DNA from: Chrysophaeum taylorii
Lineage: Eukaryota; Sar; Pelagophyceae; Pelagomonadales; Pelagomonadaceae
Reading direction: 5' to 3'
Length of the DNA stretch: 64,000 bases
Assembly: GCA_029834535.1 (NCBI GenBank)
Contig: JAQMWT010000404.1
Location: forward strand, 89,791-153,790
Under the pieces are notes generated by a model. It had not been told where the DNA came from. It made no database searches and saw only the letters and a program-made list of their open reading frames with translations. Both the position numbers and the translations under genes were made by a program. Below, piece after piece: positions 849 to 6,281 of this stretch. How positions within the stretch are numbered: position 1 is the stretch's first letter; every line of letters starts with the position of its first letter.

Positions 849-1251
849 TAACCTAACATCAGACCTCTCCCTAGCATATGGGAGCCAGGCCGGACCGGTA
901 GAAGCCGGTACGGAATCACAGAGGAAAATCACGCAGTTGGGGCAGAGGCGAGGGACGAGGACGGGCTTGTTGATGGTGGACCGCCACTGCGCGCGGTCTT
1001 GTGCGAGGTCGTGCAAAAGCGTCGTAGGCCGCGGACGTGTTGGTCCACGAACAATCGACCTGTCCGTCGAGTTTTGCCCAACCGAGCGAACCCCATCCCA
1101 GCGCGGACTTTTTTTCCGTGTGCTAACCGGCCAGCCAGCCCGGAAGGCGAGCAGGCACCGTCTCACTCCGGGACGGCCGGGGCCGCCGCAGGGAGCAAGC
1201 AAGCGCGTTAGGCAGGCGCCGTCCTCCATCGCAACCAACGGTTAGCGATCG
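849..1251 (-). mobile_element. (TTAG)n-ended SINE-like retroposon, copy A, full length, with 9-bp TSD
   Basis: The 3' end, ctaacctaac on the plus strand, begins at 849. The 5' head (gcgatcgctaaccgttggttgcgatggagg read on minus) ends at 1251. The nonamer CAGGAATCC flanks it on both sides (840-848 and 1252-1260), a target-site duplication. It is near-identical over its length to the copy at 42837-43254. The internal sequence shares its 3' half with the LINE fragment at 20228-20472. The insertion lies at the 3' end of the GPR180-like gene and supplies its present stop codon. Confidence 0.85.
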
Positions 1252-2873
1252 CAGGAATCCAAGCCATCCTTATGGTGGTCGATGTCGCACTCGAACTCGC
1301 CCTGGAGGTCGAGGAGGGCGCGGTCGAGGTCGGCGGATATTTTGGACATGGTGCGCATCAATCTTGCCGTCTTGCCGCCGGCGACGGATATTCGTCGGAA
1401 GACCGAGGCGCGCGAGAGGGTATAGTTGGTGGTGGTGGTACCAGGCGCGTGGGGTGCTAGGTTGTTGTCGATGGGGCGGCCGGTGTCGATGTCGATTCCA
1501 GCGTCCTCATCTCGGTTGACGTCGGGCGAGTTGTAGTCGCCCTCGGCGGCGGCGGCGCCGAGAAAAAAGGCGTTGGTAATGCCGAGGTCGGCGGAAGAGT
1601 TTGCGTGGAAGGGAAAGGCCGTGTTGCAGCGGAGGTTGGGCAGGTAGAGGAAGGCGAGCGAAGCGTGCGCGGCAAAGGCGAGGGCGAGGTCCGAGGCGAG
1701 GATAAAAATTTGGCGTCGGTTGTCGTCGACCGCGAGGCCGACGAGGACCAGGAGAGGCTTGGCGATGAGCCAGAGCGTAAAAATGGCGTTGAATTTGCGG
1801 TAGAATCTGATTTTTGATCTGTAGTTTCGGGCGGTCGTGCGGGCGGCGTGCCAGAACCAGAGGACGGCGGCCGCGCGGAGCGAGACGAGGACGACGCCGG
1901 GGGGCGACTCGTAGTGGGAGGCTGTCTTGGCGGGGTCGAAGACGTAGAAGCGCCAGAGTTCGAGGGAAAGGGTGGTCCACGTCAGGGCGGTCACGTAGGC
2001 GGCGACGCGGACGCGGCCGTTGATGCTCAGCTTGCGACGCACGATCGTCCAGCCTTTGGCGAGCAAGACGACGAGAAGGACGAGGAGCAAATCGGCCGCG
2101 TGCCACAAAAAGGTGGCCGTGTTGCGGCACGCCGGGGCACCCTCGCCGTCGGCCGCGAAGGTCGCGTAGTGGACGGCTGCGAAGACGCAGCCGGCGAGCT
2201 GGACCCAGACCGACCAGCAGAGCATCGCGACCGTGTGGTGGAACTTGCGGCGTCGTCGGAGGCGCGCTCGGAGAAGGGTACAGAGAGCCCCGAGCACCCC
2301 GTAGGCCCCCAGAAAGGTGAGGGTCGTGGGCAGGGCGCCCGTCTCGTCGGCGCTGAACTCGCGGGTCTGGGGATCGTTGCCGTTCGTGAGGTGGAGATCG
2401 TAGTCCAGGACGAGGGGTCCCTGGCAAAACCCCGAACACTCGGCGTCGCAGTTGGAGAAGGCGATGAAGACCCACACGTTGGTGCTGACGTCGATCTTGA
2501 CCTTGCCCGACGCCGTCGTTTCGCCGTCGGACGTCGAGACGCGGCGCACGAAGCCGCCCTTGGTGCCGAGGTCGAGGCTCCGCGTCGCCTCGCGCCGCTT
2601 CTTCGAGCACGTTCCGTCGCTCGTGTAGAGGTCAACCCACTTATCGAACCCGTCGTAGTACAACAGCATCTCGGGGGACGCGCCGACAGGAAATGTGACA
2701 CGGAAGTCGAGAAGACCGTACTTGCGCGACGTCTCGTGGGCGTCGAGGTTCTTGGGAGTCGGCACGAAGCAGAACCGCTCCACAAACACCCATGGCTCCA
2801 GCGTGTCGAGCGACCCGTCCTTTACCCGCAACCCCCCAGCGAATCCCACCACCACCACCAGCGGCAACAGCAT
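1242..2873 (-). CDS. GPR180/TMEM145-family seven-transmembrane protein (intimal-thickness-receptor-like)
   Basis: 543 residues from the ATG at 2873, which starts a clear signal peptide (MLLPLVVVVGFAGG). The frame is open further upstream to 3074, but that part is low-complexity and overlaps the 3' end of the neighbouring gene. A lumenal domain of about 200 residues follows the signal. It has paired cysteines (NCDAECSGFCQG) and LVLDYDLHLTNG just before the membrane part, typical of the GPR180/TMEM145 ectodomain. About seven hydrophobic segments follow, including LLLVLLVVLLAKGWTIVRRKLS, the characteristic KGW-type loop of the family. The tail is acidic and Ser/Thr-rich. Family members act in secretory-pathway membranes; the function in algae is unknown. 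The last three residues (CDR) and the TAA stop come from an inserted retroposon; the original stop was TGA at 839-841. Confidence 0.72.
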   Translation of the reverse strand: MLLPLVVVVGFAGGLRVKDGSLDTLEPWVFVERFCFVPTPKNLDAHETSRKYGLLDFRVTFPVGASPEMLLYYDGFDKWVDLYTSDGTCSKKRREATRSLDLGTKGGFVRRVSTSDGETTASGKVKIDVSTNVWVFIAFSNCDAECSGFCQGPLVLDYDLHLTNGNDPQTREFSADETGALPTTLTFLGAYGVLGALCTLLRARLRRRRKFHHTVAMLCWSVWVQLAGCVFAAVHYATFAADGEGAPACRNTATFLWHAADLLLVLLVVLLAKGWTIVRRKLSINGRVRVAAYVTALTWTTLSLELWRFYVFDPAKTASHYESPPGVVLVSLRAAAVLWFWHAARTTARNYRSKIRFYRKFNAIFTLWLIAKPLLVLVGLAVDDNRRQIFILASDLALAFAAHASLAFLYLPNLRCNTAFPFHANSSADLGITNAFFLGAAAAEGDYNSPDVNRDEDAGIDIDTGRPIDNNLAPHAPGTTTTNYTLSRASVFRRISVAGGKTARLMRTMSKISADLDRALLDLQGEFECDIDHHKDGLDSCDR

Positions 2874-2973
2874 TGTGGCGTTGTGAACTCTGTGTCCGTT
2901 GAGGAGGAGTCGGGCGCACGAAATGAATGAGGCCGTCATGACGACAGAGACACATTGGTGGTGGTGGTGGTGG

Positions 2974-4254
2974 TCAGTTGTTTGGGGCCGCGGCACGGAC
3001 GGCGTCGAGGACTCGGCGCGTGGACTCGGGGGTCTCGCAGCGGTCGTGGCCCATGGTCTTCTTGGAATGCACAAGTTCGCCGTCGACGGTGACCTCGAAG
3101 TTGCCCGTGGGGACTGCGTCGCGGATTTCCGTCACCTTGGCGGCTGGGACCTCGGTCTCGATCGCATCCTTGAGAGCGGTCGAGAAGCGGTCGTACCCTC
3201 AGGCGCCGCAAAACTGGATGTCGACGGCGGGAGACGACGACGACGGAGCGTAGATTTCCTCGAGGTCTTTGGCCGCGTCGGCGAGGGTTGGTCTCGGTTT
3301 TTCGAGCTCGCGCCTCGCGAGGGGGGGGAGGGCGAAGGCGGCGACGTGTGCCTGGGGGTCGTAGAAGTCGAGGGCGTGTTCGGTGGCGAAGGCGGCAGCG
3401 CGGTTTTCGTCGTCGAGAGCCCGGGGATCGTCGCCGAGCGTGGCGCACGCGAGGTTCCACTGGCCGCCCGGGTAGACCGCCGAAAAGCACGAGTAGGGCA
3501 TGACCACGGGAAAGCCCGCGGCCTTGAGGCCGTGGTACACCGTGCGGAAGACGCGCGGCAGGTACCAGTAGCTGCCGGCCTGGGCGACGACGGCGCCGCG
3601 CGGCCGGAGACATCGCCGGAGGGCCTCGTAAAAGGCGGGAGCGTAGAGCTGGACCCCCGGGCCGATCGGGTCCGAAGCGTCGACAACGACGAGGTCGTAC
3701 TGGGAATCGGGGCTCGCGCGCACGAATTCGCACCCGTCCGCGAAGACGACGTCGAGGCGAGCGTCGGCGTCGAGACTCGCGGGCCAGAGGGTGGGCATGA
3801 GGTCGCGAGCCGCGTCGACGACGCCCCTGTCGATGTCGACGAGTGTCACGTGTTCTACCTCGGGGTGCCGAAGGATCTCGCGCGCGACGCCGCCGTCGCC
3901 GCCGCCGACGATCAATACCCTCAGCTCGCGTCGGGGCGCGCCGCGCCGCAGGAGGGGCACGTGGGCGAGGAACTCGTGGTACCCCGCCTCGTCGCGCTCG
4001 GCGCACTGGAGCGCGCCGTCGAGGATGAGCGCGCGGCCGAGCGACACCGTGTCCACGACGGTGATGTGCTGGAACTCGCTTCGCACGTCGCGGACGACGC
4101 CCTTGATCTCGGCCGACCACACGATGCCTCGCAGCCACGAGTCGCTCACGAACCGTCCGTCCCGCGACACCCCGCACCGTGGCACGCTGATCTCGGGGGC
4201 CACGAGCGCCGACGTGATGGTGCACCACCACGACAGTAAATGAAGGATCCCCAT
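2974..4254 (-). CDS. Spermidine synthase-selenoprotein W fusion with selenocysteine (UGA at 3199-3201)
   Basis: Residues 1 to about 330 form a polyamine (spermidine/spermine) synthase. The Rossmann methyltransferase-like fold shows VLIVGGGDGGVAREILRH (glycine motif binding decarboxylated SAM), YHEFLAHVPL, VTLVDIDRGV and the catalytic-loop motif DASDPIGPGVQLY. A short linker leads into VDIQFCGA, then TGA, then GYDRFSTALKDAI, matching the CxxU/CGAUGY redox motif of selenoprotein W. The reading frame continues 74 codons to TGA at 2974-2976 with NFEVTVDGELVHSKKTMGHD, the conserved SelW core. A plain stop at 3199 would leave the SelW domain cut in its own active site, so UGA is read as Sec352. The start at 4254 has a good context (aggATGg) and opens a signal-like segment ending in SALVAP, suggesting plastid targeting. 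An alternative ATG at 4263 overlaps the upstream gene's stop. No SECIS element could be confirmed. Confidence 0.85.
3199..3201 (-). other. In-frame UGA selenocysteine codon inside a CGAU motif
   Basis: On the minus strand the codons read TGC GGC GCC TGA GGG TAC, giving C-G-A-U-G-Y, the signature of the SelW/Rdx thioredoxin-like family. SelW-family sequence continues in the same frame on both sides. Confidence 0.85.
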
Positions 4255-4259
4255 CCTCC

Positions 4260-6167
4260 TCATGTCGCGTCCTGGAACGGAACGCACGCCAGATCGTCGT
4301 CCGACCCGGCCCCTGCACCTGCCCCTGCCCCTGCGCCTGGGGGGGCGGAGTCAGCAGGAGCCCCAGTCGCCCAGCACCACCGCCACAGGGCGAGCGCTGC
4401 AGAGACGACGAGGAGTGGCCGCCATCCCCGAGGGGAAAAGAGAGCGTCGAGCCTCGGGAGGAGAGAAAGGTGAAGGAGGTCGGAGCGGAGAAACCTGGCG
4501 AGCTTGGCCTCGAGGTCGTCGGGGGCCCCCAGAACGAGCTTGCGGAGGCGGGGAGGGTCCCGGAGGATGGCGCGCGCGAGGCGGCGGATGGCGCGGGGAA
4601 ATGCGCGCTCGACGCGGCGGGTCCAGCGGTAATTCAAGGGGAGCGAGAGAAGCGCCGCGTCGGCCGCTGCCCGCGGCGAGTAAGTCGACGACGAGACCCG
4701 GTGGTACTCCTGGAGCGTCTGGCGCGCGTACTTGGCCCAGAGCGCGGCGATCGAAAAGGTGGTCTCGCCGAGGACGGCGAGGCACCGTCTGAGAGCGCCG
4801 ACCGTGCGCGCGAAGAAGATGACCTCCGACGGTACTTTGGAGAAGATCGGGAGGCTCGCGGGGTCGTGTGAGAGGGCGTCCTCGATACGACGGAAGATGG
4901 CCTCGGGGATCTCGCAGTCTTGGGCGGTCGAGTCGAAGAACTGGTACAAGAGCGCTCGCCGGGTCTCGAGGTCGGCCGCCGTCGCGGCGAACTCGTAACG
5001 GTCGGCGAGGCCGGTTCCGAGCGGGTCGTCGAGGGCCGCGGCGACTAAATCAGGGCTGCGCGCATTCAAGAGCAGCACGAGCCTCGCGAGGTGGGCGCGT
5101 TGCTCGAGGTCGAGCTCGCAGCACTGGCCCCAGTCGATGAGCGCGAGAGCGTCGCGATCGTCGAGGACCAAAACGTTGCCCGGGTGCGCGTCCGCGTGGA
5201 AGAAGCCGTCGAGAAACAAGGAGGCCCCGATCGCGTCGATCACGGCAACGAGTCGGCGCTTGACGACGAGCTCGCGGCGGCAGTGCGCATCGAACGAGGC
5301 GAGCGTCGTCCCCTCGAGAAACTGTGCCGTCAACGACGACGAGCCGCACAGCTCGACGACGGGCTGCGGGACGACGACCGCCCCGCCAAACCCCCGATTT
5401 TCGAAGATCGCGACGGCGCGCCGCATGTTCCGGAGCTCGAGGGTGAGGTCGAGCTCGCAGGGGAAATTGTTGTCGAACTCGTCGAGGATCACTTCGATCG
5501 TCTGGCGCATTCCGAGCCCCAACAACGCGTCCACTTGCAGACACAACGATCTATGGTTCTTCAGGTCTTGGCACATGTTTCGTCGCGCGTCCTCGAACAC
5601 CACCTTGATGGCGACGTCGGCGAAGGCGCCTTCGCCGGTGCGCGCCTGCCGCGGTCGCGCGAGCCGACCGCGGTGCACCTGCCCGACCGACGCCGCCGCG
5701 AGCGGCTCTTTCGAGACGTTCTCCAGAAGCTCGTCGAGGGTGGCCGAGCCCACGTCGCCCGTCAAAACCCGCTCTATCTCTTCCCAGGGCCGCGACCGCG
5801 CCTTGTCAAACGCGAAGCGCAGCTCGCGCTCCCAAGCGCGCGGCAGCAAGCTCCCCTGGGAAACCGCGTACTGCGCGGCCTTGAGGTAGACGCCGCCGAG
5901 CTCGTCGTACATTCGCGCGACCAGCCGACTCGTCTCCTCGTGCTTGGTATCGAGCAGCGCGTCGCGCTTTCGCCGGTACTCCTCCTCGTCGGCCGCCTCG
6001 GATCGCACCCGCCCGAGTTCCTGGAGTGCGCGGTAGTACCGCACGAGAATCGGCACCGCGTGGCTCAACACCTTGTAGCTCCGCGTCATGTCCGAGTAGC
6101 TCGAATTCATCGACGCGCGGACGCTCGCACTCAATGCCTCGATGTCCCACGTTGCTTCTCTTCCCAT
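4260..6167 (-). CDS. UbiB/ABC1/COQ8-family atypical kinase (ABC1K)
   Basis: 635 residues from the ATG at 6167. The longer open frame upstream runs over the divergent transporter gene and is a shadow. Family motifs appear in order: the N-terminal KxGQ-like helix (YLKAAQYAVSQGSLLPRAW, with A-A replacing x-G), the alanine-rich nucleotide loop (EPLAAASVGQVHRG), the VAIKVVF lysine, the DLTLELRNM helix, the catalytic loop FHADAHPGNVLVL and the metal-binding ALIDWGQCCEL. A C-terminal hydrophobic segment (LLVVSAALALW) may anchor it. ABC1 kinases support quinone biosynthesis in mitochondria or plastids; which organelle applies is unclear. The stop codon TGA (4260-4262) overlaps an ATG (4261-4263) of the next gene on the same strand, an unusually tight junction. 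A GA-repeat codes the C-terminal GAGAGAGAG tract. Confidence 0.88.
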   Translation of the reverse strand: MGREATWDIEALSASVRASMNSSYSDMTRSYKVLSHAVPILVRYYRALQELGRVRSEAADEEEYRRKRDALLDTKHEETSRLVARMYDELGGVYLKAAQYAVSQGSLLPRAWERELRFAFDKARSRPWEEIERVLTGDVGSATLDELLENVSKEPLAAASVGQVHRGRLARPRQARTGEGAFADVAIKVVFEDARRNMCQDLKNHRSLCLQVDALLGLGMRQTIEVILDEFDNNFPCELDLTLELRNMRRAVAIFENRGFGGAVVVPQPVVELCGSSSLTAQFLEGTTLASFDAHCRRELVVKRRLVAVIDAIGASLFLDGFFHADAHPGNVLVLDDRDALALIDWGQCCELDLEQRAHLARLVLLLNARSPDLVAAALDDPLGTGLADRYEFAATAADLETRRALLYQFFDSTAQDCEIPEAIFRRIEDALSHDPASLPIFSKVPSEVIFFARTVGALRRCLAVLGETTFSIAALWAKYARQTLQEYHRVSSSTYSPRAAADAALLSLPLNYRWTRRVERAFPRAIRRLARAILRDPPRLRKLVLGAPDDLEAKLARFLRSDLLHLSLLPRLDALFSPRGWRPLLVVSAALALWRWCWATGAPADSAPPGAGAGAGAGAGSDDDLACVPFQDAT

Positions 6168-6281
6168 CTCTGGCACACACACACACACACTGTGAGGAGT
6201 TTCGTCACGGCATGGAGACCGTCGTCGTGTCACCGCGTCATTAAATTGACGCGGGGTAAACAGAAAAACAAAGATCTGCGG
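6168..6281. promoter_or_regulatory. Bidirectional promoter between ABC1K and CRT-like transporter
   Basis: Only 114 bp separate the divergent start codons. It begins with an (AC)n run (6173-6190) and later becomes AT-rich (gtaaacagaaaaacaaag). No TATA box is evident. Confidence 0.5.

Follow-up and report, generated by a model that had tools for sequence, protein, structure and literature searches.

The biochemical role of SelW, a widespread selenoprotein, is poorly settled. Selenoprotein W (SELENOW) is described as a 9.6 kDa protein, and the U of its CXXU motif is where it binds 14-3-3 beta (PMC8508763). Fusions of selenoprotein domains to other domains are on record from selenium-using algae, as SELENOM-pVHL, SELENOM-ShKT, and GST-MSRA (PMC7539508), and from ocean metagenomes, where Trx-fold selenoproteins are joined to other domains in Prx, Prx-like, and UGSC fusions (PMC2398784). 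Spermidine synthases also occur with extra domains, including AdoMetDC-APT in bacteria, SpdSyn-saccharopine reductase in Ustilago, and the APT fusions of diatoms (PMC12803844). The pelagophyte A. anophagefferens is reported to have 12 aminopropyltransferases (PMC12803844) and 82 selenoprotein genes (PMC7539508). This richness in both would make a related alga a natural place for a fusion of the two.

At the locus described here, within a window of 64,000 nucleotides (the whole stretch of DNA that was analysed), a spermidine synthase runs in frame through a TGA into a full SelW domain. Judging from sequence, it is highly likely that this is a nuclear gene of a selenium-using alga, by its relatives probably an ochrophyte, encoding a fusion of spermidine synthase and SelW, with Sec352 inserted by means of a SECIS-like element and two products made. 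From genomic DNA and predicted proteins, the locus is judged to be a real selenoprotein fusion.

A spermidine synthase frame running into SelW

The minus-strand frame 4254..2974 translates as 351 codons, a TGA, 74 further codons, and a terminal TGA. An earlier note on this DNA, made from the letters alone, had described SelW sequence running 74 codons to a proper stop, its covalent union with a spermidine synthase, and a TGA at the SelW redox Sec position (CGA-U-GY). The translation bears this out, with both domains in one frame and the TGA at the CxxU site. The features of the frame are as follows.

2974..4254, minus strand: fusion frame of 426 residues, counting the TGA as Sec, from spermidine synthase through Sec into SelW
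4195..4254, minus strand: hydrophobic N-terminal leader MGILHLLSWWCTITSALVAP, containing SALVAP, possibly for secretory or plastid targeting (by eye)
3250..4140, minus strand: spermidine synthase domain (Pfam and NCBIfam profiles, PDB alignment)
3906-3889, minus strand: GGGDGG motif, residues 117-122 (stretch aligned to solved spermidine synthases)
3681-3655, minus strand: DASDPIGPG motif, residues 192-200 (stretch aligned to solved spermidine synthases)
3226..3249, minus strand: linker APSSSSPA, weakly ordered by prediction (pLDDT <50 at residues 339-341)
2977..3231, minus strand: SelW domain (Rdx, thioredoxin-like; Pfam, NCBIfam, PDB match, AlphaFold2)
3201-3199, minus strand: in-frame TGA taken as Sec (codon and residue 352), within CGA-U-GY (translation)
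2976-2974, minus strand: terminal stop TGA

The N-terminal part matches Pfam Spermine_synth at 150.5 bits (cut-off 22.9), the Pfam tetramerisation domain at 33.3 bits, above its cut-off, and NCBIfam PRK00811 at 266.6 bits (cut-off 260), while NCBIfam TIGR00417 speE, at 228.1 bits, stays below its cut-off of 249.55. As in known spermidine synthases (polyamine aminopropyltransferase, PRK00811), the domain is complete and the family motifs are kept. The C-terminal part scores 44 bits with Pfam Rdx (cut-off 22.6) and 48.3 bits with TIGR02174 SelT/W/H (cut-off 34.2). It also aligns with residues 4-84 of the 96 in a solved structure of selenoprotein W, 2npb (E 2.6e-9). The likeness to SELENOW (Pfam Rdx, TIGR02174) extends over the whole domain, including CxxU and the conserved TGNFEV and HSKK blocks. 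The fused copy differs in being the C-terminal domain of a 426-residue protein with no start codon of its own; past residue 252 the frame contains no further ATG up to the TGA. It lies in frame with the spermidine synthase and lacks its own ATG, and is thus a SelW domain rather than a free SelW.

That the frame arose by chance is countered by three observations. Both domains exceed curated cut-offs in a single frame, third-position GC is 0.89 over the synthase codons vs. 0.85 over those that follow the TGA, and the tail shares 62% identity with a free SelW encoded elsewhere in the genome. A start at the ATG at 4263-4261, 9 nt upstream of 4254, is equally possible.

It is improbable that the locus makes two separate products, with the UGA as the ordinary synthase stop and SelW translated from another transcript that takes its start from a 5' exon. 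The CAG/TT just 5' of TGC could serve as a 3' splice site, introns are plausible in this genome, and the top four protein matches (P0001-P0004) end at about DLEEIYS without SelW. However, the frame is open across the junction, the SelW-like VDIQF upstream of CGA is in the synthase's frame, and this frame has no ATG after residue 252 and before the TGA, which also speaks against separate products. An assembly or base error that joined two genes or created the TGA is considered extremely improbable. The judgement is made from the assembly, where the contig spans 153,790 bases and has the junction in its interior; the linker keeps the frame, and the TGA falls exactly at the family's Sec codon. 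At 62% identity, the tail is also no mere copy of the free SelW.

An AlphaFold2 model of the fusion, built with 51 aligned sequences, has a mean pLDDT of 90.8 and consists of two ordered parts with a weak linker between them. Confidence is 64-76 in blocks over residues 331-360 and 81-91 over most of the SelW part. CGAU occupies residues 349-352, with a predicted strand (343-348) and helix (355-368) around it. A structure search with this model returned spermidine synthases for all of the best 50 of 1,923 PDB matches, so that its outcome concerns the synthase fold.

Plastid proteins of ochrophytes follow a rule of a signal peptide plus an ASAFAP-like motif. By eye, the leader of the fusion resembles ochrophyte plastid leaders, and a plastid location of the fusion may be proposed. 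Leaders that look alike by eye are present in the relatives P0001-P0005 and P0016, and AlphaFold2 confidence over the fusion's leader is 61-63. With a start at MAAPG the free SelW would have no such leader, although its open frame extends upstream of that point. Among other Rdx matches in the genome, L001 (contig C362, minus strand) is a protein of Cys type (CTGC) with a leader, containing FARAFVSP, that looks plastid-like by eye, and a weak match of 27.3 bits (L005, 1501-1770) lies in a 925-residue open frame with CLDC replacing CxxU.

Selenocysteine decoding and the SECIS-like element

The genome was searched over 70.8 Mb in 697 contigs. One match to the tRNA-Sec model lies above the gathering score (60 vs. 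47 bits) and has a UCA anticodon. Three weaker matches share one contig with plastid-type genes, and 5 of 14 control genomes also give scores above the model's cut-off. SepSecS and SelD were both found. Profile searches with Rdx, GPx, Sep15/SelM, PMSR, and AhpC-TSA_2, followed by reading of the loci, gave ten other genes with an in-frame TGA at a Sec site: the free SelW, SelT, two GPx, three of SelM/Sep15 type, one MsrA, and two SelU-like genes. A PMSR match with both TGA and TAG inside (L031) was left out of this set. The tRNA-Sec, SepSecS, and ten further genes with TGA at the Sec site indicate that the genome is one that decodes Sec.

Two of the loci have unusual surroundings. SelD (L033, contig C581) lies, with CGGC, in a 930-residue frame behind what by eye is an NADH dehydrogenase-type domain, resembling the Ndh-SelD fusions of PMC2398784. 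The MsrA gene (L026, contig C303) directly follows a bacterial-looking frame, and its contig may be a bacterial contaminant.

Downstream of the fusion's stop lies a SECIS-like element, set between the fusion and the next gene as follows.

4263..6176, minus strand: upstream neighbour, ABC1 atypical kinase (Pfam; start chosen by author)
2882..2954, minus strand: SECIS-like element (from the genome's own Sec-gene pattern and folding)
2939-2935, minus strand: SECIS-like core ATGAC, 37 nt after the fusion's stop
2934-2913, minus strand: short hairpin GGC...GCC of the element
2912-2909, minus strand: CGAC of the element (sequence)
1245..2873, minus strand: downstream neighbour, TMEM145/GPR180-like protein, with its ATG ~100 nt past the fusion's stop

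The kinase's stop TGA (4262-4260) overlaps the possible fusion ATG at 4263. Gene order on this strand is very tight (4263-4260 and 2976-2873 of the window), so that the element fills the gap to the TMEM145/GPR180-like gene. Helix I (TGTG.CTCTGT / ACAGAG..CACA) is good at -14.9 kcal/mol.

An AA/CC apical motif is expected in SECIS elements. The apical hairpin of the fusion's element lacks it and is weak and short (-2.0 kcal/mol, 22 nt), with similarly short hairpins in MsrA (19 nt) and SelU1 (20 nt). Scans with Rfam reported no SECIS for the fusion region or for L001, L002, L003, and L006, which include the SelW and SelT loci. As L002 and L003 hold Sec genes and were also negative, this test is uninformative. 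The earlier note had proposed a search of the 3' UTR for a SECIS; a SECIS-like element with ATGAC at 37 nt is present there, its hairpin is weak, and Rfam does not recognise it.

ATGAC occurs 27-72 nt past the stop in all ten Sec genes, two of which, SelU1 among them, carry two copies in this range. For comparison, ten presumed non-Sec genes with no TGA taken for Sec were drawn from the profile and spermidine synthase searches as controls. One has ATGAC at 20-75 nt (L036, at 50 nt), although in this control the N-terminal part, where Sec would sit, was not matched; another (L029) has it at 87 nt. L036 (contig C102) is SelU-like and may be either a further Sec gene or a chance match. In the window, ATGAC lies at such a distance in 3.4% of random stretches and after 9 of 226 ORF ends. 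At the free SelW locus (L002, 1640-1910), the 3' end including ATGAC is tandemly repeated past the stop, placing ATGAC at 27 and 158 nt.

A loose SECIS rule did not separate the fusion from background, as its score was reached by ~22% of the other ATGAC sites (169 in all) and by 204 of 2,000 shuffles, and a stricter rule was therefore drawn. This rule was shaped after the controls and the fusion had been seen, and its hairpin minimum was widened from 20 to 18 nt for MsrA. A stem of at least 3 pairs with [CT]GA[AC] fits the fusion and eight of the ten Sec genes, compared to 15 of the 169 other ATGAC sites. When the fusion's 3' end was shuffled with ATGAC fixed, 195 of 3,000 sequences fitted and 61 of 3,000 reached the fusion's score. 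The full rule further requires that helix I be at least as stable as -6 kcal/mol and that ATGAC follow the stop by 20-75 nt. It is passed by the fusion and seven of the ten Sec genes (three fail), by none of the ten controls, and by none of the 226 other ORF ends in the window, which comprise ORFs of at least 100 codons, many of them mechanical, with minus-strand ends at 2960-3300 excluded. Upstream of the nine other strict sites in the window, no selenoprotein-like frame was recognised.

Relatives and constraint on the SelW tail

A search with residues 20-427 against 5.8 billion proteins gave 7,995 scored candidates. Among the best 120 of 220 matches, coverage of the query never exceeds 78%, and a SelW tail is absent from all 19 that were opened. 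A search with the SelW part alone for proteins of comparable full length, with 93 candidates scored, also found no such fusion, and no relative of P0001 was found among viral contigs. These negatives are limited evidence, as protein databases of this kind would truncate Sec-containing fusions at the UGA.

The top four matches, P0001-P0004, are 72, 69, 64, and 54% identical to the fusion and end without SelW, 1-16 residues past the last IY of the DLEEIY block. They stop about where the SelW linker begins in the fusion. P0004 comes from a transcript. P0001-P0003 derive from contigs whose kind is not stated, and in these a SelW exon could lie hidden behind an intron. P0034 and P0035 change abruptly mid-protein, as a read-through intron would. 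In a tree of 32 synthases the fusion groups with P0001-P0004, P0034, and P0035 (88/84), its placement within this group not being settled. P0005 and P0007-P0010 are listed with a HAD-type domain (PF12710, phosphatase) beside the synthase domains, and four of them are, going by their names, presumably brown algae. This synthase has thus taken different partners, a HAD-type domain in these relatives and SelW in the fusion. The earlier note had looked to a SelW tail conserved in relatives, which is not what was found among those seen. As the tail is absent from these, the fusion looks lineage-specific, and the union of SelW and spermidine synthase appears, as far as seen, to be confined to this lineage.

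The tail was compared with the free SelW (contig C389), to which it has 62% identity with dN 0.30 and dS 0.69 (NG86, 78 codons); as a single pair, this does not assign the constraint to either copy. Of 14 SelW relatives from a profile search, 11 are matched better by the fused copy than by the free copy, with P0125, P0131, and P0132 favouring the free copy by 1-3 residues. In the well-aligned region of P0122-P0124 the fused copy matches 33/49, 34/49, and 33/50 residues and the free copy 28/49, 24/49, and 24/50. The fused branch of the SelW tree is 0.16 vs. 0.79 for the free copy, which is flagged as a long branch, though only 1 of 13 inner branches is well supported.

These comparisons bear on whether the tail is a decaying, unused duplicate of SelW that ended up behind the synthase by accident, which we regard as very improbable. 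The lack of a tail in P0001-P0004 would fit such decay, as would the survival of an open frame in 50% of neutral simulation runs at 0.2 changes per site and 37% at 0.35; at 0.5 it survived in 30%. However, the tail remained open with both the TGA and Cys kept in 16, 5, and 2% of runs at these rates. The fused copy, besides its shorter branch, has family residues that the free copy has lost (KKTMGHDRCE vs. KTKMGHDRAE), and a SECIS-like element is retained at the usual distance. The SelW tail does not look decayed.

Possible roles and comparison with known fusions

A selenoprotein fusion of this kind would be one protein in which a spermidine synthase carries a Sec-containing SelW domain on a short flexible linker. 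The 3' SECIS-like element would recruit the Sec machinery, UGA codon 352 would be read as Sec, and the full fusion would be made. Without Sec insertion the ribosome would stop at the UGA, giving a complete synthase ending ...DIQFCGA. The earlier note's statement that a stop there would make no sense is therefore too strong, as P0001-P0004 end at about the same place and such a stop would still release a complete spermidine synthase. The SelW part would then be a selenium-conditional C-terminal extension. In most selenoproteins, a stop at the UGA leaves a dead fragment. Here a complete domain lies on either side of the UGA, so the supply of selenium would determine in what proportion the two useful products are made.

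The tethered SelW is probably a thiol/selenol oxidoreductase at the synthase's site, possibly the plastid, and might either reduce partners nearby or act on the synthase's cysteines. A role in tethering or targeting is put forward tentatively. Direct redox control of polyamine synthesis, which the earlier note had suggested, is rather doubtful; any one of the cysteines in the synthase part (11, 27, 84, 175, 215, 256, and 270) could conceivably be the SelW target. It is unlikely that the two domains have no functional coupling at all. Less likely again is a selenium switch, whereby Sec supply at the UGA decides between the plain synthase and a form with a selenol redox arm, and the same low standing is given to the idea that this arm senses or sets the redox state of a polyamine compartment, perhaps the plastid. 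Docking on, or reduction of, a partner is conceivable given that SELENOW binds 14-3-3 beta at the U (PMC8508763). A SelW covalently tied to a metabolic enzyme offers a direct, testable hint at what the SelW domain can serve.

No earlier description of a spermidine synthase–SelW fusion was found in the algal and ocean selenoproteome literature within reach, which excluded most subscription papers, nor in the accessible text of PMC5917014 and PMC13059024. The earlier note did not recognise the union, and the accessible text of PMC7539508, PMC2398784, and PMC12803844 does not describe it. Selenoprotein fusions are known, as are fusions of spermidine synthase, but the pairing of this enzyme with SelW was not found as far as searched. 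The algal fusions of PMC7539508 are of other families, with no SELENOW fusion named and 'spermidine' absent from the main text. In the text of PMC2398784 that was covered, SelW is a neighbour gene of Prx rather than fused to it, and 'spermidine' is absent. The APT fusions of PMC12803844 have no selenoprotein partner, and 'selen' is absent from the main text. The locus nevertheless shares features with each of these systems. Like the algal fusions, it joins a selenoprotein domain to another domain in a selenium-using alga; like those of the ocean metagenome, its selenoprotein has a Trx fold; and like the APT fusions, it is a synthase with an extra domain, which is C-terminal as in the SpdSyn-saccharopine reductase of Ustilago (PMC12803844).
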